A stretch of DNA of 20,513 bases from a virus. The stretch's first letter is position 1. Each line of letters begins with the position of its first letter. Shown here one piece after another: positions 1,142-15,435 of the stretch. The stretch is from positions 1-20,513 of the IMG/VR virus record IMGVR_UViG_3300007537_000440; one strand, written 5' to 3'. Made by a program: the position numbers and the translations under genes. The notes beneath the pieces are model-generated. The model was given only the letters and a program-made list of their open reading frames with translations. It was not told the DNA's origin and ran no database searches.

Positions 1142-1738
1142 TCATACCACCCTCCCGTTTTCTATTTCGAAAACCTTATCAGCTTGTTGTGTGATTTCTG
1201 GAATATGGGTGTTTATGAGCATTTGAACACCAAACTCTTCGGACAATAATTTCAGCATGTCAACTGCTCTTGATAATAATTGTTTGTTTTCTCTGTTACT
1301 GAGATTCTTGAAGGGCTCATCCAATACAAGAATTGGAGCATCATTTTCAAGCCTCCAATAAGCCATTCGTATAGCAAATGACGCAACATCAACAACACCA
1401 CCACCAACTCCGTAATTAGGTTTAAGTAATCTGTTTCCGCTTTTAAACCAGAGATCACACTCAGTTTTATTTCTGCGTTCAACAAAATCCATTACAAATT
1501 CATAGGGATCGTCAAACACAGTTTCAAAAGCTTTTGTAACAAGATCAGAGAAATGATACTCAAGACTCTTCTGAGTCTTTTTTGCTGCTACTTGGAATAT
1601 CGAACGCGCGTCTTCCGCAGATTGCTTTTCCTTTAAGCACTCATCAAGTCTTTCTTGGTAGTTGCTCAGTTCTTCTTGCAGAACTTCACGCTCAGTTTTT
1701 AATCTTTCTATGCGTTTACTGAATTCCATTTTTTGCAT
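1142..1738 (-). CDS. Rad50/SbcC-like ATPase, C-terminal half (gp46-like)
   Basis: This encodes the C-terminal half of an SMC-type ATPase whose N-terminal half is a separate gene at 2871-3941. A short coiled coil leads into the signature motif (GVGGGVVDVASF, the place of the LSGGE-type loop), Walker B with its glutamate (PILVLDEPF), the D-loop region (NLSNRENKQ) and the H-loop (INTH). It contains no CxxC hook. It should pair with the N-terminal half to form the ATP-binding head that works with Mre11 (1975-2874) at DNA ends. The start is uncertain: ATG at 1738 is given (198 residues); a TTG at 1765 would add nine residues. Both have weak ribosome binding sites and both lie inside the end of the upstream coiled-coil gene in a different frame, so translation may depend on reinitiation. 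Confidence 0.85.
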   Translation of the reverse strand: MQKMEFSKRIERLKTEREVLQEELSNYQERLDECLKEKQSAEDARSIFQVAAKKTQKSLEYHFSDLVTKAFETVFDDPYEFVMDFVERRNKTECDLWFKSGNRLLKPNYGVGGGVVDVASFAIRMAYWRLENDAPILVLDEPFKNLSNRENKQLLSRAVDMLKLLSEEFGVQMLINTHIPEITQQADKVFEIENGRVV

Positions 1739-1982
1739 TTTCAATCTCGTCAAGTTTTTTGCCAATTTTTTCCGAAAGTTCTTCGATCTTGTTCTCCAGC
1801 TTTGTAATTTTCATTTGTGTTTTTTCGTTTAATGCTTGGAGTTGTTTTTGATCAGAGGTTCCGAAGTTTTCTTTTGCGTCTTGCTTTACGTTTGAAAATT
1901 GTCCACGGGCTTCACTCAATTCATCCCTGAGTTTTTCATAACGATCTTTCAATTCTTGATACTCTTCTAATAAGTCAGTCAT
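1716..1982 (-). CDS. Short coiled-coil protein, candidate second arm of split Rad50
   Basis: This 88-residue protein is almost entirely predicted coiled coil, with heptad-like Leu/Ile spacing (KITKLENKIEELSEKIGKKL). It has no cysteines. ATG at 1982 has a strong GAGGAGG site upstream and overlaps the end of mre11 by 8 bases. Its 3' end overlaps the Rad50 C-terminal half in another frame. In a one-piece Rad50 this is the position of the returning coil between the zinc hook and the C-terminal ATPase half, so it may act as a separate piece of that arm or fuse to it by frameshifting (+1). That role is inferred from position and composition only. Confidence 0.75.
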   Translation of the reverse strand: MTDLLEEYQELKDRYEKLRDELSEARGQFSNVKQDAKENFGTSDQKQLQALNEKTQMKITKLENKIEELSEKIGKKLDEIENAKNGIQ

Positions 1983-2874
1983 TCAGCAAAGCCTCCTCAA
2001 TGAGTTCTTTTGTTCGTTTTTTTACTCTTCTCTTGCTCTTGAGCACTGTGTTTATGTTCTGTCTGTAATCGAGTTCTCCTTCAAAATCAGATTTTAATCC
2101 TTCAGCAAACTCATTCTTTCTTTTTTCGCTTGCTTTTTGTATTTTTACTTCTTCCTCTTTTAAAACTTCTTTTGATTCGGCAATTGTATAATAATGTTTT
2201 TCTATATCCTGCGTTTCAGTATCATAAATACAGAAGAAAGGTTTATGATTCTTTTGGTCAATGTTCATACGTCCAATGCTGCCGCAGTTGATTACTTTAT
2301 CGCGTGTGAATCCTTTATGATTATCGCCGCACACAAACAGATCGTACTTATATTTTTTTGGAAGCTTCCTTGCTTGAACATAATCAGATTGTCCTGGCCA
2401 GAGTTTCTTTCCATTTATTATCATTTTATGCATCACGGCAATATTACATGATTTGCTTTCGTATTTTCGTGGATCAGAAAGTTTCACGTTCCAACCAAAT
2501 CCGTGCAAAAATACTTTACCACCTATATGAGTTCCTTTCGAACTGATTTCTTGAATGTAACCACCTGTCACAAGTATTTGAAATGGAACATCCCGTACTT
2601 CAAGATTATGAAACTTTACATCATGCTGCCCGGGTATTGTGTAGATAGGAATCTCATATTTGTCCAAGAAAAGCATCACATCATATAGAAGGGAGTATGG
2701 ATCACGTCCATAATTATTGAAGAGGTCTCCTGGCTGGATGACAGCATCACATTTTTTCTCAAATAATGAAAATGCTTCTGTCAATTTTTGGAATTGAACA
2801 CCATAGTAATCATCCGATCTGTTAATTGGATTTGTGTGACGGATATGAAGGTCGCCAAGAATGCCTATTTTCAT
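1975..2874 (-). CDS. Mre11/SbcD-like nuclease (gp47-like)
   Basis: This 299-residue protein carries the calcineurin-type metallophosphoesterase motifs in order: GDLHIRH near residue 7 (Asp8, His10), QPGDLFNN, PGQHD, AVMHK and CGDNHKG. In the family these bind two Mn ions and give 3'-5' exonuclease and endonuclease activity at DNA ends together with Rad50. The usual GNHD motif reads GQHD here, and the last motif reads GDNH rather than GHxH. I believe similar changes occur in phage relatives, but I cannot verify that here. A charged helical C-terminus follows. The gene sits between the two halves of Rad50. ATG at 2874 overlaps the upstream stop (ATGA). Likely role: recombination and processing of phage DNA ends. 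Confidence 0.9.
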   Translation of the reverse strand: MKIGILGDLHIRHTNPINRSDDYYGVQFQKLTEAFSLFEKKCDAVIQPGDLFNNYGRDPYSLLYDVMLFLDKYEIPIYTIPGQHDVKFHNLEVRDVPFQILVTGGYIQEISSKGTHIGGKVFLHGFGWNVKLSDPRKYESKSCNIAVMHKMIINGKKLWPGQSDYVQARKLPKKYKYDLFVCGDNHKGFTRDKVINCGSIGRMNIDQKNHKPFFCIYDTETQDIEKHYYTIAESKEVLKEEEVKIQKASEKRKNEFAEGLKSDFEGELDYRQNINTVLKSKRRVKKRTKELIEEALLND

Positions 2875-3941
2875 GCTGTCTCCTCACACTCTTCGAAGGG
2901 ACGTTCGCAGAGAGGACAAACTTCAAGTTTGCTTTTCATTTTTCCAAAATCACGTTCAATTTTTTCAAACGCTTTCTTTGTCTTTGTGAGCTTCTTTTCT
3001 GTTTTAGATAGTCTCTCTATCGTCTTTTCAATTTTTTCTTGCTCCAGCCTCAAATCCTTTAGCGAGACAGCTTCTTTATCAAAATCATTCATCAACTTTT
3101 CAAGCTGTTTTTGATTTTTTGAGTAGACATCGATTTTGGATTTTATATTTGAAAGTGTTTTTTCTGTTCTGGATATTTCTTTGTGCTTTGTTTTTTCTGT
3201 ATCAACATCAATCAAAATTTCATCAAACTTCTCAAACAATTCACCAACATTGTCTATTTTTGATTGTATATTGAGCAGAGTTACCATTGAATCCAGTTTT
3301 GCTATTAGTGTATCTATTTCTTTGAGCTTATTATCAAGTGCTTCAAGCTCTTCCTGGTGTTTTTCATACTGAGCGTGCAGTTCTTCAACTTCTTTTAAAG
3401 GTGCGTAAACTTTGAGTTGTTGGTCTTTTGTTTTGATTTCTTGATTCAAGTGTTTTTCTTCACTTGATTGTTTCCGGATTACACTATTAATGTATTTTAA
3501 ACTCGAATCAATTTGATCCAGACCCGTCATATTGTTTAGTTTCTTTGCCACATCGCTTGAGTTGAGGCTTAACAAGAACGGAGGATCAAACTGCATTTGA
3601 ATGTTTGTGGAATTAAAAGGTACGATCTGTTTCACTTCTTGTGGAACATCTGTTCTTGTTGCATCAAAAAAAGAATTATCTATCTTGTAGCTGTTTCGTT
3701 TTTTATTCCGGATTCTTTGTATTTTATGATTGTCTGTTTTTGCTGTGACTGAACAAGATTTAGCACCTTCTTTAATAAAGTCTTGTCCTGACGGGCGATT
3801 AAAAAATAACCAATATAATGCTCGTGCAATTGATGATTTGCCCTGATCACTGTCTCCTATGAACACATTTATTCCCGGAGACAATTCAAAACCACTGTCC
3901 TTGTGAATCTGAAAATTTTCAAGATGTATGCTTTTTAACAT
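2871..3941 (-). CDS. Rad50/SbcC-like ATPase, N-terminal half ending at zinc hook
   Basis: This 356-residue protein begins with the Rad50 N-terminal fold (MLKSIHLENFQIH) and Walker A at residues 28-37 (IGDSDQGKSS, with Asp-Gln where GxNGxGKS is usual). A long coiled coil follows, and it ends a few residues after a zinc-hook CxxC (CPLC, Cys342 and Cys345). The protein therefore stops just where a full Rad50 would turn back at the hook; the rest of the molecule is supplied by genes at 1716-1982 and 1142-1738. ATG at 3941 overlaps the preceding stop as TAATG. Known for the family: ATP-driven DNA end binding with Mre11. Inferred: two such halves could dimerise through the hook. Confidence 0.9.
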   Translation of the reverse strand: MLKSIHLENFQIHKDSGFELSPGINVFIGDSDQGKSSIARALYWLFFNRPSGQDFIKEGAKSCSVTAKTDNHKIQRIRNKKRNSYKIDNSFFDATRTDVPQEVKQIVPFNSTNIQMQFDPPFLLSLNSSDVAKKLNNMTGLDQIDSSLKYINSVIRKQSSEEKHLNQEIKTKDQQLKVYAPLKEVEELHAQYEKHQEELEALDNKLKEIDTLIAKLDSMVTLLNIQSKIDNVGELFEKFDEILIDVDTEKTKHKEISRTEKTLSNIKSKIDVYSKNQKQLEKLMNDFDKEAVSLKDLRLEQEKIEKTIERLSKTEKKLTKTKKAFEKIERDFGKMKSKLEVCPLCERPFEECEETA

Positions 3942-4117
3942 TACAACACCATATGATTTCTTTTGTAGTGCATATAAAGATTATAGAGTCTTTCTCCTTT
4001 TCGTATGAAAGAAATGCTATCAAGATTTTTTAGGAGATCAATTCCAGTTTTTTCCTCATACTTTTTAAAAGCATCTTCGATTTCTTTTTTCAGCGTTTCT
4101 TTTGGTTCTGCATTCAT
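3941..4117 (-). CDS. Small charged hypothetical protein (58 aa)
   Basis: ATG at 4117 overlaps the upstream stop (ATGA), follows the purine-rich AAGGAAG, and the TAA overlaps the next ATG (TAATG). The translation starts MNAEPKETLKKEIEDAF and ends with LYMHYKRNHMVL. It is helical and charged, with no cysteine and no membrane span. The coupling on both sides is the main evidence that it is real. No family is recognised. By position it is translated immediately before the Rad50 N-terminal half. Confidence 0.65.
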   Translation of the reverse strand: MNAEPKETLKKEIEDAFKKYEEKTGIDLLKNLDSISFIRKGERLYNLYMHYKRNHMVL

Positions 4118-4230
4118 TTTCTATTACTTCCTTTTCCTTTGCTTCTTGTTGGTTTGCACCCCCCGCGACCTTGATTTGATCGTTGTCCTTTGCCGCTGCC
4201 GTCACGTTTTGGAGTTCCTTTTGTTGACAT
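4114..4230 (-). CDS. Small Gly/Lys/Arg-rich basic peptide (38 aa)
   Basis: ATG at 4230 follows a strong AAAGGAG site that lies in the last codons of the upstream gene. The product starts MSTKGTPKRDGSGKGQ and is made mainly of Gly, Lys, Arg, Ser and Thr with a single Cys. It looks disordered and nucleic-acid binding. Its local base composition is more GC-rich than its neighbours, owing to the glycine and arginine codons. Its stop overlaps the next start (ATGA). Similar short 'GTPxRDGSG' peptides occur in other phages, to my recollection, without known function. Confidence 0.6.
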   Translation of the reverse strand: MSTKGTPKRDGSGKGQRSNQGRGGCKPTRSKGKGSNRK

Positions 4231-4233
4231 GTT

Positions 4234-4497
4234 TTACATCTCCTTTAATGGATACCAATACTGGATTTTTTGAATGTCATACATTTTTGGATCCATAATT
4301 GCGTGTTGTCTTGCTACATAAGCAACATGAATATTCCAACCTATTATAGAACCCCACACAAGTATTTTTTCATGGGTGTCTGGAGGAAGCTCAGTTGAGG
4401 TTGAGATCATGTGCTTAAACTCTGGAGCTTCTTGAATAGTTTCAGTTTTTTTCTTGCGTTTTCTCTTCTTTTTCTTTTTATGTACATCAAAACCCAT
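4234..4497 (-). CDS. Small protein with polybasic head and DUF551-like C-terminus
   Basis: This is an 87-residue protein. Residues 6-17 are nearly all Lys/Arg. The rest contains ELPPDTHEKILVWG and ends QYWYPLKEM, which resembles the DUF551 pattern (a 'LP-x-x-x-x-VLVW' segment and a terminal 'WMPLPE') found in many phage and prophage small proteins. No function is established for that family. ATG at 4497 comes two bases after the stop of the HD-domain gene. The polybasic head may be a DNA-binding addition, as in several neighbours. Confidence 0.65.
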   Translation of the reverse strand: MGFDVHKKKKKRKRKKKTETIQEAPEFKHMISTSTELPPDTHEKILVWGSIIGWNIHVAYVARQHAIMDPKMYDIQKIQYWYPLKEM

Positions 4498-4499
4498 TT

Positions 4500-5024
4500 T
4501 TAATCCTGACCGATACCAAGATTTTGTGCTCGTGCTAAAAATAATTCTTTTGCTTTTTCTGGATCATAGCAAGGAAGAAAATTAATACACAGAGGTTTTA
4601 CATGAGACATCTCCCATTCACTTGTATCAAATCCAAGCAAATTTCCCTCGGTTAAGCACAATCTCGTATCATATTCCCACACATCTTCTGAAACAGGCCA
4701 TTGCAAACGGAATTTTTCAAATACCTTTTCCAGAATATTACGCTCAATTTGTTCTAATAAAAATGTCTTTATACGGATAAATTGTTTTATAGGTCTTGTT
4801 ATATCTCCAATATATGCTTCTGCCGCATCATGCATTAATCCTTCAGCATCAGCAAAATAAGATACATAAACTGAGTGTTCAGCTATTGAATAGAATTGTT
4901 TGCAATGTCCATTGAATCGGCACTGATTTGCAAGAGAGTGTGCAATGTCAATCAGGTGTATTTGTTCTTTCTTTGGACTAAATACATCAAATTTTTCTCC
5001 AGTGTAAGTCATTATCCAACTCAT
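4500..5024 (-). CDS. HD-domain phosphohydrolase
   Basis: This 174-residue protein starts MSWIMTYTGEKFDVFSPK. It shows the HD-superfamily pattern: RFNGHCKQFYSIAEHSVYVS (His50), then LMHDAAEAYIGD with the His-Asp pair at 65-66, followed by a conserved-looking DITRP. A later Asp in WEYDTRL could complete the metal site. Members of this phage and bacterial family are predicted metal-dependent phosphohydrolases related to YfbR 5'-nucleotidases; deoxynucleotide substrate use is inferred. The gene is coupled to the nuclease upstream by an ATGA overlap and lies close to dCTP deaminase, in keeping with a role in nucleotide pools. Confidence 0.85.
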   Translation of the reverse strand: MSWIMTYTGEKFDVFSPKKEQIHLIDIAHSLANQCRFNGHCKQFYSIAEHSVYVSYFADAEGLMHDAAEAYIGDITRPIKQFIRIKTFLLEQIERNILEKVFEKFRLQWPVSEDVWEYDTRLCLTEGNLLGFDTSEWEMSHVKPLCINFLPCYDPEKAKELFLARAQNLGIGQD

Positions 5025-7321: not shown

Positions 7322-7815
7322 GATGTTTTCCCATTAGAAAAAGACATTATAAGATTTGTGCCCTTTTCAGAATAGCTTGCTGCTTTTAATCCCACTTTTG
7401 CTGCTTTCTTTTTCAGCAACTGCTTGTCAAAACCATTGTAATGAAAATTTTCTTTATATCCCTGCCCACCATACAGTTTCTTTACAACTTTTTCAGTTGG
7501 TAACTCTCCAGTAAAATACTTGTAAGCAATATCAAGAAGATTTGGCACTCTGATCTCAATGATGCAGAATGGTTTTAATACTCTTGTCCACTCATATAAC
7601 AAAGATTCTGCCGCACAAATAGGAAAGTGTTCAAGAATATCGCTTGCAAGCACATATTCAAAAGTATTGTTTATAAATGGAAGTCTCTCTGCATCACCTA
7701 TCACATTGACACCAATAGTCTCTCGGATATCGTAGTTAATGCATTTGATCTCATCAGAAGGATAGTGTTCGTAAATTCTTTTACCACTTCCTATATTAAG
7801 ACAGAATCTATTCAA
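7318..7815 (-). CDS. Class I SAM-dependent methyltransferase
   Basis: This 165-residue protein uses a TTG start at 7815 inside the end of the recombinase gene, with AAAGGA about ten bases upstream. It shows a SAM-binding motif I (CLNIGSGKR), an acidic motif II region (INYDIRE), GDAERLPF and the post-motif LASDILEHF, as in Methyltransf_11-type small-molecule or protein methyltransferases. No DPPY or Cys active site of a DNA methylase is present, so the substrate is open. It lies between two DNA-metabolism genes. Confidence 0.8.
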   Translation of the reverse strand: MNRFCLNIGSGKRIYEHYPSDEIKCINYDIRETIGVNVIGDAERLPFINNTFEYVLASDILEHFPICAAESLLYEWTRVLKPFCIIEIRVPNLLDIAYKYFTGELPTEKVVKKLYGGQGYKENFHYNGFDKQLLKKKAAKVGLKAASYSEKGTNLIMSFSNGKTS

Positions 7816-10183
7816 ACTTCTTTTTCCTTTTCAGTTTGAGTTCTTCTTCAAAATCATTCCAACATGCACCGACCATTTCTTTTAATTCATTTTCAAGATT
7901 ATTATCCTCAATGTGAGAAACCAGTTTTTGTTTTGATCCCTCAAAATCGAGTTCTGGAACTTCGTACGTGTTTTTCTTCTTCTTTAAAACACCCATTGAA
8001 TCGAGATAAGCGACACAGGATTTGATGTCATCAACTCCATAATCATAATAAATAGGAAACGTTGCTTCTCTGCGTTTGCCTGTCTGACGATTCTTTTCAA
8101 TTTTCGCCATTGAATTGACACCGATCATCGTGTCTTTTGATTTCTCTTTCTTTCCAAGAGCTAACCAAATTTCATGCCATGAATAAAACTTTAGTGCTTT
8201 GCCACCGCTTCGAGTCTTCTTGGAGAAAGACATCATACTTAGATTATCTCTGGTTTGTGATATGATTATGACTATAGAGTTTGTCTTCTTGATATCAATG
8301 TTGATGTCGGATAGTAATTGACTTGCTATTCTTGCTTTAGCAGTTCCGTAGCTTCCTTTAGAAGCAGTATCTTTTTTCCATGCTTTGTACATCTCATCAA
8401 TATGCTTTTGATCTTCTTCAGAAGTAACGGAATCAAATGAATCAAGGATATAAATAAAGGGTTTGTCCCCTTTTAGCGCATCTTTTATATGCATGTGAAA
8501 ATCTTGAACAGTGACAGAGCTAATCGGTTCTTTGTTCTCATCATATCTTGGCGCTTCAAGACGTTTTACAAGTTTCTTTCCAAAAAGCTTTTCCTTATCA
8601 AAATCTTCACCACACTCAGCATCATCAAAGATCAGTTTATAATCATCAAAATCTGATAACTGAGCGACTTCAGCAAAACATGTGAGTGCAAGGATTGTGT
8701 TGTGACTAACAAATCCATTGCTCCAAAATAAATGGGTTTCTGGTATATGAAAGTCATACACTATTGTTTCTTCTTCTTTTTCTTCTCGCTGAAATATTTT
8801 ATCAAAATGATAATCAGAATTTAAAAGACTTTTATAAAACGACATGTTTATTGGAAAATCAGAAAAAGAGACTATGAATTTTTCAATCATCTCCCACGAC
8901 GCGTTTGAACAGCCTCCAAATTTAAATCTGGGAAATCTTTTTTTATGTTTTGTACAAATTCCATTTTTTTTCCATCCCACTTTTCTTCTTGCTAATCTTA
9001 TATCTTTTTTCATTTTATTAACTAAATTGGGGACAGTATCATAATCACTTTTGCGTTTTCTACTTTTTTTAGGAAGATCATATTTTAAACTTCCTATGAT
9101 TTCTAGATATTTATTTATGTCTTCTCCGTATATAGACACAGACCAATACGAATGATCATGATAATTTGTTCCGTCAAAGGCTCCAATTTTCTCTTTTCTG
9201 GAAGACAGAATACCTAGATTAAGAAGCATTAATTGAACTTGCATTGAAAGTTCTTTTGAAGAAGTATAGTAAGAAATACCCCTATCAGAAGCCCATCCAT
9301 CACAATCAATCAATGCTTTTAAAAAATGCACTTGTATTTCCTTGCTTCCCGATAAAATACAGTCAGGAACATATTTATTTCTTGCAGTAATATTTGATTT
9401 TGTATTGAACAAAGACATCATTACAGCAGATAGATGGACGCTGCTGATTGTGTTTATTTTACTGAAATGCAGCCCAAAAACAGAACATATTTTATTAATT
9501 CTATCTTGAACATATGGTTTTGTGTTTGGAATGGCTATTGATCGTGGCTTATCTCCTACAATAAAAGAACCGTCAGCTACAATATAGCCCATAAGTTCAG
9601 CTACATTTTTATCCATGTATTTTGGAAGGTTTGCTGTTATTACATTTGTTGTATCTATTTTTACTTTTGGTATTTTTGTTTTTTTATTTGAGAAGTGATG
9701 AACTCCTTTTGCAATAACAGCAATATCATCCACTTCAACATCTTTTAATTTTTTCATTTCAAATTCAAAAGACATGAAATTATAAACCATAATAGGATGG
9801 CATTCTGTACCTTCAATCTCAAATCCGTGTCTTGTTTTTATTTTTATTGTTTTTTGTACTTCTTCTTTCCAGAAATGTGATGTGGTTTCTTTTGTGCTTT
9901 TATCGACTGCAACAGTATCCACATATTCTGAAAGTCCTAAAGCTTTTTCTTCCCCAATATTGTCTATTTTTGAAAGTCCGTTTGAATTTAGCACATATGC
10001 ATTTTTTACACACTTTCCGGCTGAACTGTCACCTATGAGATTAACTATTCTTCCTTTTCTAAAACCACCGAAAGGATTGTCAGCAAGAGCGCAGTTTAAA
10101 AGTGTGCTGCCTGTTGGGATTAATGAGTCGTATGGATTTTCTCTTTTGTTTGAAGAGCGTTTCTTCTTTCGGCGTGAGGTCAT
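7808..10183 (-). CDS. RecA/UvsX-like recombinase precursor with in-frame intein
   Basis: This 791-residue precursor is interrupted inside the P-loop. The N-extein (residues 1-57) ends GDSSAGK and the C-extein (496-791) starts TILALTCF, so splicing restores GDSSAGKT and a 353-residue recombinase. The C-extein has an acidic DDAECGEDFD segment, Walker B (FIYILDSFDS), a GSYGTAKARIASQLL loop and the VIIISQTRDNL segment typical of RecA-family proteins. A highly basic N-terminus (MTSRRKKKRSSNKR) and tail (KRKKKFE) may aid DNA binding. Expected role: strand exchange and recombination-dependent replication with the gp32-like SSB. ATG at 10183 directly follows the lipoprotein stop. Confidence 0.92.
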   Translation of the reverse strand: MTSRRKKKRSSNKRENPYDSLIPTGSTLLNCALADNPFGGFRKGRIVNLIGDSSAGKCVKNAYVLNSNGLSKIDNIGEEKALGLSEYVDTVAVDKSTKETTSHFWKEEVQKTIKIKTRHGFEIEGTECHPIMVYNFMSFEFEMKKLKDVEVDDIAVIAKGVHHFSNKKTKIPKVKIDTTNVITANLPKYMDKNVAELMGYIVADGSFIVGDKPRSIAIPNTKPYVQDRINKICSVFGLHFSKINTISSVHLSAVMMSLFNTKSNITARNKYVPDCILSGSKEIQVHFLKALIDCDGWASDRGISYYTSSKELSMQVQLMLLNLGILSSRKEKIGAFDGTNYHDHSYWSVSIYGEDINKYLEIIGSLKYDLPKKSRKRKSDYDTVPNLVNKMKKDIRLARRKVGWKKNGICTKHKKRFPRFKFGGCSNASWEMIEKFIVSFSDFPINMSFYKSLLNSDYHFDKIFQREEKEEETIVYDFHIPETHLFWSNGFVSHNTILALTCFAEVAQLSDFDDYKLIFDDAECGEDFDKEKLFGKKLVKRLEAPRYDENKEPISSVTVQDFHMHIKDALKGDKPFIYILDSFDSVTSEEDQKHIDEMYKAWKKDTASKGSYGTAKARIASQLLSDINIDIKKTNSIVIIISQTRDNLSMMSFSKKTRSGGKALKFYSWHEIWLALGKKEKSKDTMIGVNSMAKIEKNRQTGKRREATFPIYYDYGVDDIKSCVAYLDSMGVLKKKKNTYEVPELDFEGSKQKLVSHIEDNNLENELKEMVGACWNDFEEELKLKRKKKFE
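8699..10012 (-). mobile_element. Intein with LAGLIDADG homing endonuclease in recombinase P-loop
   Basis: This is a 438-codon in-frame insertion. It begins with Cys58 (CVKNAYVLNSNGLSKI, block A), has a block B GTECHPI, and ends FVSHN before a Thr as first extein residue. The His-Asn end and nucleophile are therefore all present. The endonuclease part has two LAGLIDADG-like helices, AELMGYIVADG and FLKALIDCDG, both keeping the acidic residue. It should be competent for splicing and homing. Insertion between GK and T of Walker A is a classic intein site in RecA-type ATPases. Confidence 0.93.
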
Positions 10184-12958: not shown

Positions 12959-13015
12959 TTTCTCCTCCTCACTTTTATTAAAATATGTGATCAGATACTA
13001 ATGCTTAGTTCAATT

Positions 13016-13047
13016 ATTAATATAGCGTTCGCATTCAGAAAGAAGAC
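13016..13047 (-). promoter_or_regulatory. Promoter-like element, copy 2
   Basis: In the gap after the clamp loader stop, the minus strand carries TTTTGTCT and then, 18 bases after TGTCT, the 10-mer CTATATTAAT (13025-13016). The same two blocks stand at the same distance from the stop codon at 19016-19047. Repetition in two intergenic gaps, each just before a downstream transcription segment, suggests a phage promoter. No good -35 box with 17-base spacing was found. Confidence 0.45.
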
Positions 13048-13055
13048 AAAATTTT

Positions 13056-14000
13056 TTATTCTCTAAGTTTTTCGTAAGCTTCGTAGGCGTTTCTGACAAG
13101 CTCATTCTTTGCATCAATACTATAATAAGGGGTGCTAAAAGCATTTAAAACAATCTGACCCCCCTCATCCCCGTTTAAAAGTACGGAAGCAAAGTATGAT
13201 CGTATTGTACGGCGGGTGACTTCTGGATCATCAGACAATTCTTTTAAAATAGAAGCAAGTTTTTTCCAATCTTGTCCATCCATTATTGCCCTACACAAAG
13301 CAATTGCTCTCTCACGCTTCTCTGCTTCTTGTTTTGCAGCATCAAGCATGTCTTCAGTTTCCAAGTGCATAATTTTTTCAAGAATCTTTATAGCATCTCT
13401 TGGATGTCCAAGTGAATCCCTTGCGATTTGCAGCGCAACTTTTTTCTCAAGCTCTATTTCTTCATTTTCAGCTATAGACTGTAACAGAGAGTAAATCTGT
13501 TTGTCTGATAGTGTTTGTACTTGATACTGAACGCATCTGCTTTTCACAGTATCAAGAATCTTTTTTGGATCAGTTGTGCATAGAAAAAAATAGACATGAG
13601 AAGGAGGCTCTTCAAGTGCTTTGAGTAGTCCGTCCTGTCCTTGAGGTGACAGACGATGACAATTATGCACAGCAACATCTTCAGCAAAATATGACGGATG
13701 CTTTTCAACCTCCAGATCATAAAATTCTATAAATCCTTTACTTCTTTCTTGATCTCCAATAATACTTTTGAAAGGTCGTTCATTATTTCGTTGTTTGTAA
13801 ATCTCAATACTTTCCAATCTAATTGTTTTAGTTTGTCCTCTTTCTTTTTGTCTTTTTTCTTCTGTTTTTTTGTGTTGTGCCCCTTTCCATCTATTTCTAT
13901 AGCTACTTTGAGTTTTGGGTTGCCAATGTCTACTTTGTAATTTGTTGGGTATTCTTTCTCTCGTTTTTCGCGTAGAGGAATAGGGTATTCTGGCTGCCAT
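13056..14000 (-). CDS. Clamp loader ATPase, C-terminal part with C-terminal intein half
   Basis: The last 201 residues (13056-13661) are the C-extein, starting CHRLSPQGQDGLLKALEEPP, with the sensor-1 TTDPK and the SRC motif (VKSRCVQYQV) of DnaX/RFC-type loaders. Just before it is a C-terminal intein half: EFYDLEVEKHPSYFAEDVAV ending HN before Cys+1. The start shown, ATG at 14000, is the only ATG in this frame after the amber at 14238, but it has no ribosome binding site, and most of residues 1-75 overlap the homing endonuclease gene. A start nearer 13760, entry by frameshift, or readthrough from the N-terminal part are alternatives. Splicing with the N-terminal part would give a 323-residue loader that opens the sliding clamp. 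Confidence 0.85.
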   Translation of the reverse strand: MAARIPYSSTRKTRERIPNKLQSRHWQPKTQSSYRNRWKGAQHKKTEEKRQKERGQTKTIRLESIEIYKQRNNERPFKSIIGDQERSKGFIEFYDLEVEKHPSYFAEDVAVHNCHRLSPQGQDGLLKALEEPPSHVYFFLCTTDPKKILDTVKSRCVQYQVQTLSDKQIYSLLQSIAENEEIELEKKVALQIARDSLGHPRDAIKILEKIMHLETEDMLDAAKQEAEKRERAIALCRAIMDGQDWKKLASILKELSDDPEVTRRTIRSYFASVLLNGDEGGQIVLNAFSTPYYSIDAKNELVRNAYEAYEKLRE

Positions 14001-14521
14001 CCCAAAGCAGAAGACAAGATTTTTTGAGGAACAGTCAATTTGCCATTTCCACCCCTCTGACCTAAGAAAACGTTCAATGTACCATTTATACGTTTTGTTT
14101 CTCTTGCTTTTTTGATGCTTTTTGGATTGTTCATAGGGTTGTTTTTCTTCATTCGCAAAGAATTTTGCAAGCGTAAATTTGGACGTCTGTTTGCTGTTGT
14201 AACTGCTTCTGATATTCTTTGCCTTGTTTCTTTGCTTCTATTTTGTCCCGTTCGTGTTTTCCCTGCTAATTTGTTTCCACAAATCTTTGAACAAGTAATC
14301 ACATGATTTGATTTTTTTCGCGTGAAGATTTTTCCGCAAACAGGACATTTTCTTTTTTCTGAAAGTCCTTGTCCAATTTTCCAAGCTTTTAATTTTCCTG
14401 AACAACTTTTTGAGCAGGTGTTTCTTTTTTTGAATCTCTTGATTGTTTCGTTCTCTCGTCTTTTTAATTTTTCTCCACAAACCAAACAGTATTTTTTTCT
14501 TATTCTTCGTAATTTTTTCAT
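13727..14521 (-). CDS. Free-standing EDxHD (Vsr-like) homing endonuclease inside the intein
   Basis: This 264-residue protein starts with ATG at 14521 behind a clear GGAGG six bases upstream, in a different frame from the clamp loader. Two zinc-finger-like modules come first: YCLVCGEKL with TCSKSCSGK, then KCPVCGKIF with TCSKICGNK. A basic helical region with NUMOD-like RQRISEAVTTANRRPN follows. The C-terminal nuclease domain has AIEIDGKGHN, KKEDKLKQLDWKVLRF and NNEI, matching the E-D-x-H-D pattern of Vsr/DUF559-related homing endonucleases. It likely cuts the intein-free clamp loader allele to spread the element. Confidence 0.85.
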   Translation of the reverse strand: MKKLRRIRKKYCLVCGEKLKRRENETIKRFKKRNTCSKSCSGKLKAWKIGQGLSEKRKCPVCGKIFTRKKSNHVITCSKICGNKLAGKTRTGQNRSKETRQRISEAVTTANRRPNLRLQNSLRMKKNNPMNNPKSIKKARETKRINGTLNVFLGQRGGNGKLTVPQKILSSALGWQPEYPIPLREKREKEYPTNYKVDIGNPKLKVAIEIDGKGHNTKKQKKKDKKKEDKLKQLDWKVLRFTNNEIMNDLSKVLLEIKKEVKDL

Positions 14522-15197
14522 TCTTGTCCTCCAATGCAAAAGTTTTGTTTTGCAACATATCATCATTGAAGGACAAGATCAAGTCATCTTTTGTAAGATT
14601 TATTGCTTCTACTTCTCCGTTTTGTGTATAAAATACATGTTCTTTTGTTGTGAATAAATAATTGCCATTTGAAAAATTTAATTTTACGATTCTATCAAGA
14701 GATACTTTATTGCAAAAAACATGTTGTACTTTGTCCACTCCATTTAAAGAGTAAACTAAATCTCCTACTTTAAAATCTTTTATTTTTTTATTTCCATATG
14801 GTGTTTTTATTTTTGTATCGGAATGAAAACACTCATCCATGATATAAACTTTTGAAGAGCCTCCGAAAGGTTTTGTTGTCATTTTTCTTCTAATTTCACG
14901 AACAAGATCAATGCCCGTAAAATCAGCGATATCAATTTCTTTGAGATCATATGGGGAGCAATTTAATTCCGAAGCAAAGATACGCGCAAGTGATGTTTTT
15001 CCGCTTCCAAAGGGTCCGCTAAATAGAACTGCGTGAGGAATGCTGTTTTTCTTTAATACTTGTTTCAAACTCTTCTTTAGAAGAGCATTTCCAAAAAATT
15101 CATCAATATTCTTTGGTCTGTATTTTTTTGTAAGATCGAGTTCGTTTGGTATTTCTTTTTCTTCTTCGATCTTCTTTCTTTTTCTTTTAGCGGACAT
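14238..15197 (-). CDS. Clamp loader ATPase, N-terminal part with N-terminal intein half
   Basis: Residues 1-122 are the N-extein: a basic head (MSAKRKRKKIEEEKE), LTKKYRPKNIDEFFGN as in RFC/DnaX loaders, Walker A (SGPFGSGKTSLARIF, residues 60-74) and the first part of Walker B (KVYIMDE). From Cys123 the intein N-half runs to about residue 210 (FKVGDLVYSLNG, TTKEHVFY). The last 100 or so residues are Lys/Arg-rich, overlap the endonuclease gene out of frame and end at TAG 14238. ATG at 15197 follows the stop of a small membrane protein gene whose end supplies GGAGA. There is no DnaX zinc finger. Confidence 0.88.
   Translation of the reverse strand: MSAKRKRKKIEEEKEIPNELDLTKKYRPKNIDEFFGNALLKKSLKQVLKKNSIPHAVLFSGPFGSGKTSLARIFASELNCSPYDLKEIDIADFTGIDLVREIRRKMTTKPFGGSSKVYIMDECFHSDTKIKTPYGNKKIKDFKVGDLVYSLNGVDKVQHVFCNKVSLDRIVKLNFSNGNYLFTTKEHVFYTQNGEVEAINLTKDDLILSFNDDMLQNKTFALEDKNEKITKNKKKILFGLWRKIKKTRERNNQEIQKKKHLLKKLFRKIKSLENWTRTFRKKKMSCLRKNLHAKKIKSCDYLFKDLWKQISRENTNGTK
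14528..14532 (-). promoter_or_regulatory. Ribosome binding site of the nested endonuclease
   Basis: GGAGG, six bases before ATG 14521. It lies within the clamp loader/intein reading frame and shows the endonuclease is translated independently rather than by in-frame fusion. Confidence 0.85.
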
Positions 15198-15200
15198 AAA

Positions 15201-15347
15201 TTAATCTCCAAACGGATAAACAAGCAATGCAAACAATGAATAAAAAAGAGCAAAAGTGACTGGCCACTGAACATCTGTTAGCATAAATGATGATGCAGCA
15301 GTAGCCCAAATCAGCGACAGACTTGAATTCCAAAAATTAAGCCTCAT
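15201..15347 (-). CDS. Small two-span membrane protein (48 aa)
   Basis: ATG at 15347 has GGAG six bases upstream. The translation begins MRLNFWNSSLSLIWATAASS and has two hydrophobic stretches (about residues 10-22 and 29-45) with a short VQWP turn between, ending VYPFGD. Its last codons contain the ribosome binding site of the clamp loader gene. Not recognised. Its coupling between polymerase and loader genes suggests it is really expressed. Confidence 0.65.
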   Translation of the reverse strand: MRLNFWNSSLSLIWATAASSFMLTDVQWPVTFALFYSLFALLVYPFGD

Positions 15348-15357
15348 TTATTTCTCC

Positions 15358-15435
15358 TCAGTAAAATGATTCCAAATACAATCCCCACGCGACAAGACTA
15401 AAAAACAACGTAACGCTATATACGATAGCAATCAT
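15358..15435 (-). CDS. 25-residue membrane peptide
   Basis: ATG at 15435 is preceded by AAAGGAGGTGATC (15449-15437), an exact complement of the 3' end of 16S rRNA, with a six-base spacer from AGGAGG. The peptide starts MIAIVYSVTLFFSLVAWG and is essentially one transmembrane helix. Its stop overlaps the ribosome binding region of the next small membrane protein. The exceptional translation signal is the main argument that it is a gene; function unknown. Confidence 0.6.
   Translation of the reverse strand: MIAIVYSVTLFFSLVAWGLYLESFY

Follow-up and report, generated by a model that had tools for sequence, protein, structure and literature searches.

A clamp-loader gene on the minus strand of a 20,513-nucleotide stretch of viral DNA (IMG/VR record IMGVR_UViG_3300007537_000440, the whole of which is called the window here) carries an intein whose middle overlaps a gene for a DUF559/EDxHD-like endonuclease. 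The element is very probably a mobile intein with two overprinted products, and the copy in the window is considered to belong to a class of such inteins while bearing one recent amber codon or sequence error. The class comprises 81 distinct nested inteins from viral contigs, bacterial contigs and isolate phages; the window is one member of this widespread class, neither a one-off nor a split intein with a gene between its halves.

The clamp-loader intein and its nested endonuclease

The loader N-extein ends in ...YIMDE, after which the intein begins with CFHSDTKI... (Cys1 codon 14831-14829); the intein ends in ...YDLEVEKHPSYFAEDVAVHN, and the loader resumes with CHRLSPQGQ (+1 Cys codon 13661-13659). 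The intein-less homologue L001 reads an uninterrupted DEVHKLSQAGQNALLK at the junction position, and removal of the 390-codon intein leaves a predicted spliced loader of 323 aa (amino acids). The residues of a class 1 intein are present (CFHSDT, TTKEH and VHN followed by C); C1, T6, H66, H344 and N345 are conserved through the family. The initial annotation had placed the two splice halves in one frame and the endonuclease in another, and both placements are confirmed: the Cys1/TTKEH and VHN blocks are co-framed, and profile matches with frame mapping nest the endonuclease in another frame of the intein. The Intein_splicing and Hint profiles match each half of the window intein weakly when it is taken alone and a DUF559 match falls in the second frame; the Intein_splicing profile is clear in the relatives read whole (46 of 46 members). 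Coordinates are collected in Table 1.

Table 1. Features of the clamp-loader locus in the window, in the order in which they are transcribed
Feature	Coordinates	Strand	Evidence or remark
Clamp-loader gene with intein	15197-13056	minus	ATG at 15197; Shine-Dalgarno (SD) -6.4 before ATG
Clamp-loader N-extein, 122 aa, ends ...IMDE (Walker B)	14832..15197	minus	phrog_5846 clamp loader E=2e-28
Intein N-terminal splicing region, ~90 residues, Cys1, block B TTKEH	14562..14831	minus	Hint_2/Intein_splicing matches
GGAGG, internal SD of endonuclease gene	14528..14532	minus	Duplex energy -9.3 kcal/mol; family enriched over matched control
Nested endonuclease gene, 264 aa, +1 frame	13727..14521	minus	PF04480 (DUF559) E=3.7e-13
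TAG, sole in-frame stop of intein frame, intein codon 198	14238..14240	minus	Unique among 81 distinct nested inteins
Intein C-terminal splicing region (RLESIEIYK...YDLEV...VHN)	13662..13820	minus	IntC profile match in IntN frame; Intein_splicing weak match
Dual-coding segment: endonuclease DWKVLRFTN...KDL and intein strand LESIEIYK...GFI	13727..13819	minus	Third-position bias
Clamp-loader C-extein, from +1 Cys (CHRLSPQGQ...)	13056..13661	minus	phrog_5846 E=1.4e-35

The window endonuclease starts at the ATG at 14521, stops at a TAG (13729-13727) and is read +1 relative to the intein frame; it consists of zinc-finger-like CxxC pairs, an RMKKNNPM segment and a nuclease domain that matches DUF559 with 49.7 bits against a curated cut-off of 20.6, and all 49 family members (49/49) match DUF559 at E<=0.01. 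The nuclease domain is modeled by AlphaFold2 (AF2) with a predicted local distance difference test score (pLDDT) of ~97; the nearest folds are 3r3p (I-Bth0305I; E=1.1e-3, prob 1.00, TMt 0.62) and 3hrl. E209, D211, H215 and D224 are conserved in the endonuclease family, with D211 and H215 lacking a counterpart in 3r3p; the EDxHD label given earlier fits the restriction-like fold shared with I-Bth0305I, and for the catalytic residues of the motif it is tentative. The independent start proposed for this gene is supported by the energy of its GGAGG site, and across the family the best start upstream of the first zinc-finger cysteines has a median SD energy of -7.2 kcal/mol, the 200 matched controls giving -3.1 to -1.5; the share at -6 or below is 63% versus 10% in the controls.

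Substitutions between the closely related loci L090 and L092 fall at endonuclease codon positions 1/2/3 in a ratio of 3/1/28, altering 4 endonuclease residues versus 28 residues of the intein-frame shadow; in close pairs this codon pattern shows an endonuclease frame under purifying selection and a shadow that is free to change. In an RGGNG motif of the window gene and its relatives, the third positions of the R and first G codons are enriched in T (28 vs 9 and 33 vs 12 expected), which writes Trp in the intein frame.

A class of nested inteins

The relatives L002 and L003 show the arrangement uninterrupted: in each, loader, intein and loader form a single open frame of 649 aa, and the endonuclease nested in +1 has 218 aa. 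Searching with the endonuclease alignment A2 irrespective of reading frame returned 224 matching stretches in viral contigs, 80 of which were kept, together with 42 genome loci. Wherever a full-length endonuclease occurs with intein splicing blocks the endonuclease is in +1; in-frame placement is found in 0/81 distinct loci, and the third frame carries many stops in most loci. The other 80 of the 81 are contiguous, without a stop from N- to C-extein, the window (with its own copy, L089) being alone in having one among loci with full endonuclease and splicing blocks. The new overlapping-gene arrangement that the initial annotation had raised as one option is borne out as a class; the split or intermediate form raised with it is doubtful, given these contiguous relatives and the different appearance of gp41-1 loci.

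Nested inteins occur in 40 isolate phage records, including Vibrio phages CP-T1, 24, K391 and 1.027.O, Pseudomonas phage MR14 and Corynebacterium phage phi673, with the endonuclease lying inside a gene called helicase or hypothetical; seven annotated regions each hold one helicase-type, coiled-coil or hypothetical coding sequence, and the endonuclease is annotated in none of them. The family also has free-standing endonucleases that lack intein blocks, represented by L026, L177 and L181, which are scattered in the tree.

Selection on the intein frame

Expected stop counts were obtained by keeping the endonuclease protein fixed and drawing its codons by locus usage. Across the 81 distinct nested loci the intein frame contains 1 stop versus 1300 expected, and in the window 1 versus 21.6; three free-standing family members contain 17, 21 and 33 versus 22.0, 22.3 and 26.4 expected. 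A stop in the intein frame can arise only where a T-ending endonuclease codon precedes AA, AG or GA; the T:C ratio at these risk sites of nested loci is 1:1103 versus 3242:1383 at other sites, and at the risk sites of the free-standing genes it is 17:7, 21:1 and 33:13. Synonymous codon choice indicates that the open intein frame is kept by strong selection.

Nesting in +1 can always stay open because the change from T to C at a risk position is always silent; read in the other register, 79 of 81 endonucleases would make one or more stops unavoidable, mostly through a conserved Met-Lys. We suggest that +1 alone is seen because the other register forces stops, an explanation of our own that does not extend to the absence of in-frame fusion.

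Dual coding and the splicing fold

Over the last 50 endonuclease columns the mean third-position bias (G) is 18.0 versus 5.4 earlier (78 loci); the glycine of the GW motif ends in G in 68 of 78 loci where 27 are expected, which gives Val in the intein. The same codons of the family read GWKVLRFTN in the endonuclease frame and RVESVEIYK in the intein frame. The AF2 model of the L002 intein has pLDDT ~96 for residues 1-80, 83 for 81-90, <60 for 91-290 and 81-97 for 291-345; the strand 291-299 is confident and lies within the Hint fold. The closest solved fold is that of gp41-1 (6qaz), which is matched by the L002 intein model (E=2.2e-6, prob 1.00) and by the intein family profile (E=1.1e-19); two structure analyses were run without rows from annotated phage records. 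Judged from codon bias and the model, the final ~30 codons of the endonuclease gene double as code for a strand of the splicing fold, and would supply the opening strands of the C-terminal splicing region; the stretch of ~200 residues that separates the splicing blocks is the shadow of the endonuclease gene and probably forms a disordered loop.

Insertion sites and proposed mechanism

Nested inteins reside in clamp loaders and SF2/SNF2 helicases, and Pfam searches of the N-exteins confirm AAA+/clamp-loader and SF2/SNF2 types. The insertions lie between DE and C of motif II (Walker B) or a few residues off, with the conserved target GAYGAR/TGYCAY (the slash marks the insertion point). One helicase site in Vibrio phages is represented by empty (1.024.O), mini-intein (K389, K459) and nested-endonuclease (K391, 1.088.O, 1.027.O) alleles with near-identical exteins. 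The endonuclease tree separates loader and helicase members into two main clusters with several switches of host type, the count of which is approximate because the host labels come from a rough motif rule.

Ribosomes initiating at the loader ATG would read one frame into a loader-intein-loader precursor, from which the Hint fold would excise the intein; other ribosomes would start at the internal SD and ATG in +1 and produce a free endonuclease. This enzyme would cut intein-free sites coding for DECH and spread the element, the intein frame staying open through a silent change from T to C in each T-ending endonuclease codon that could create a stop.

The mini-inteins of Vibrio phages K389 and K459 (L294, L296) lie at that same site between DE and CH and have another N-terminal sequence than the nested-endonuclease alleles, which sister phages carry. 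In Vibrio phage PS65A.1 (L297, 620-3751) the helicase holds two inteins: one of apparent LAGLIDADG type at Walker A and, between DE and CH, an endonuclease-free mini-intein.

The stop codon in the window and alternative readings

The intein frame described in the initial annotation as nearly continuous does have a single stop in 714 codons, the TAG that follows 197 open residues from Cys1; the step from there to an intermediate on the way to a split intein is less well founded. With 21.6 stops expected and one seen, the frame was open until very recently or the base is wrong, and the most plausible reading of the copy is a nested intein, contiguous in kind, that bears a recent amber codon or a sequence or assembly error.

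The second of these, a sequencing or assembly error or a minor metagenome allele in a phage whose intein is a normal contiguous nested one, has only slightly less than an even chance. The frame is otherwise so clean that a real stop would have to be very recent, the T leaves the endonuclease residue unchanged, and a clamp loader is normally essential; set against this, the base fits the endonuclease, the contig bears no mark of an error, and a search for a second contig covering 14240-14238 found none.

An early but true split intein, in which the TAG ends an N piece and a C piece restarts downstream for trans-splicing toward gp41-1-like fractured genes, is considered unlikely. The one TAG does part two long open pieces of the same frame, both of which retain their splicing residues; among solved inteins the closest is that of gp41-1, which is split, and an in-frame ATG lies at 14000. 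However, this ATG is a by-product of the conserved GW motif of the endonuclease, and none of the in-frame restarts at 14000, 13817 and 13670 has a Shine-Dalgarno (SD +1.5, +1.8 and -1.0, versus -9.3 for the endonuclease). The relatives are contiguous, as described above, and fractured gp41-1 loci look different: IntN extends 84-96 residues from Cys1 (less where the contig truncates it) versus 197 in the window, 1 to 60 stops, usually many, precede IntC, and IntC has its own start and is in frames 0/1/2 in 26/21/23 loci. By this gp41-1 yardstick a mature fractured gene does not fit the window, and that candidate was rejected.

Programmed frameshifts, +1 in and -1 out, could join the endonuclease to the intein as in an ordinary bifunctional intein, and the frame relation is constant (+1, then back); frameshifting, however, has no need of an open intein frame, which is nevertheless maintained almost without a stop, and in most loci the first zinc-finger cysteines are closely preceded by an SD and ATG. 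This reading is very improbable and was set aside as unneeded and as not predicting the open intein frame. A group I intron with an endonuclease reading frame interrupting the loader would agree with the occurrence of EDxHD-type phage endonucleases in introns (PMC3943268), but is hardly credible beside intact splicing residues, an in-frame Hint fold and an insertion exactly between the DE and C codons; no intron RNA family was matched in 13000-15400. That purine-rich codon use leaves a functionless intein frame open by chance can be dismissed as next to impossible: an A-rich strand does lower stops, yet locus codon usage is already in the synonymous null, free-standing relatives have about the expected stops, and T is avoided specifically at risk sites.

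Several points weigh against the mobile, two-product intein preferred here. Splicing, expression and cleavage are inferred from sequence; in ~27-29 of 79 loci no strong SD precedes the best endonuclease start; and nested members served as seeds of the endonuclease search, which kept 80 of 224 viral loci, so that other arrangements may be under-sampled. The TAG of the window would truncate its own loader unless it is an error, is read through or is bridged by trans-splicing, and a search of the window for a tRNA, and hence a suppressor, found none.

Relation to known systems

Canonical bifunctional inteins, with an in-frame LAGLIDADG or HNH endonuclease, resemble the nested inteins in a cis-splicing architecture with the endonuclease between blocks B and F, but the nested endonuclease is in +1 with its own start. 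I-Bth0305I (3r3p) and the DUF559 structure 3hrl share the nuclease fold of the window endonuclease; I-Bth0305I differs in being intron-encoded and in its aligned D and H positions, which are not matched. Fractured-gene split inteins such as gp41-1, described by Dassa and colleagues in 2009, reportedly carry a related endonuclease class between their halves. They are like the nested inteins in residing in phage replication genes and in having a related Hint fold; a fractured gp41-1 locus, however, consists of two genes in random relative frames with stops between them, whereas the nested intein keeps a single open frame that the endonuclease gene overlies.

The nearest precedent consulted, from 2025, concerns methylase insertions in ShiLan and Pacc40 that contain an out-of-frame HNH endonuclease with no detectable ribosome-binding site (PMC11855218). 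These are likewise mobile phage elements with an endonuclease gene in another frame and a host frame without stops; they differ in having no splicing domain, an HNH nuclease and a host protein that keeps the loop, whereas in nested inteins the host frame is the intein and the nuclease is DUF559/EDxHD-like, usually with an SD. For overlapping frames PMC11855218 cites Gosselin, Arsenault and Gogarten (bioRxiv 10.1101/2025.01.02.630785) on inteins of 'non-canonical architecture'; the title of this preprint, which comes from the group behind the ShiLan work, suggests possible overlap, and the priority of the nested-intein class is uncertain. We propose tentatively, at somewhat under even confidence, that the nested inteins form a widespread class of mobile intein not described before, whose homing endonuclease is encoded by a separate, partly dual-coding gene overprinted in +1, and in which the amber codon of the window shows a possible route to fractured split inteins.

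If true, a single change that is silent in the endonuclease can turn a nested intein into two pieces, which offers a path from contiguous to split inteins. The intein and endonuclease would be uncoupled as proteins and locked together as DNA, the endonuclease being made free and under its own selection, and a T at a stop-risk site would break the host gene; the system would also be a clean example, from nature, of overprinting in which a simple rule sets the workable frame.

Other features of the window and its relatives

A RecA/UvsX-like gene of the window (7808-10183, minus strand) contains an in-frame LAGLIDADG intein at Walker A (GDSSAGK/C...SHN/T, slashes marking the junctions), so the phage has a second, canonical intein. 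An SbcC/gp46-like ATPase (1142-3941, minus strand) is seemingly in pieces, with the N lobe (3941-2871) ending at the zinc hook CPLCERPF, the C lobe at 1765-1142 and an SbcD-like nuclease gene (2874-1975) between them. In the relative L085, the nested-intein clamp loader adjoins a gene (1240-5013) for a fused uracil-DNA glycosylase (UDG)/exonuclease/DNA polymerase A protein of 1257 aa, which has an apparent in-frame intein of its own.
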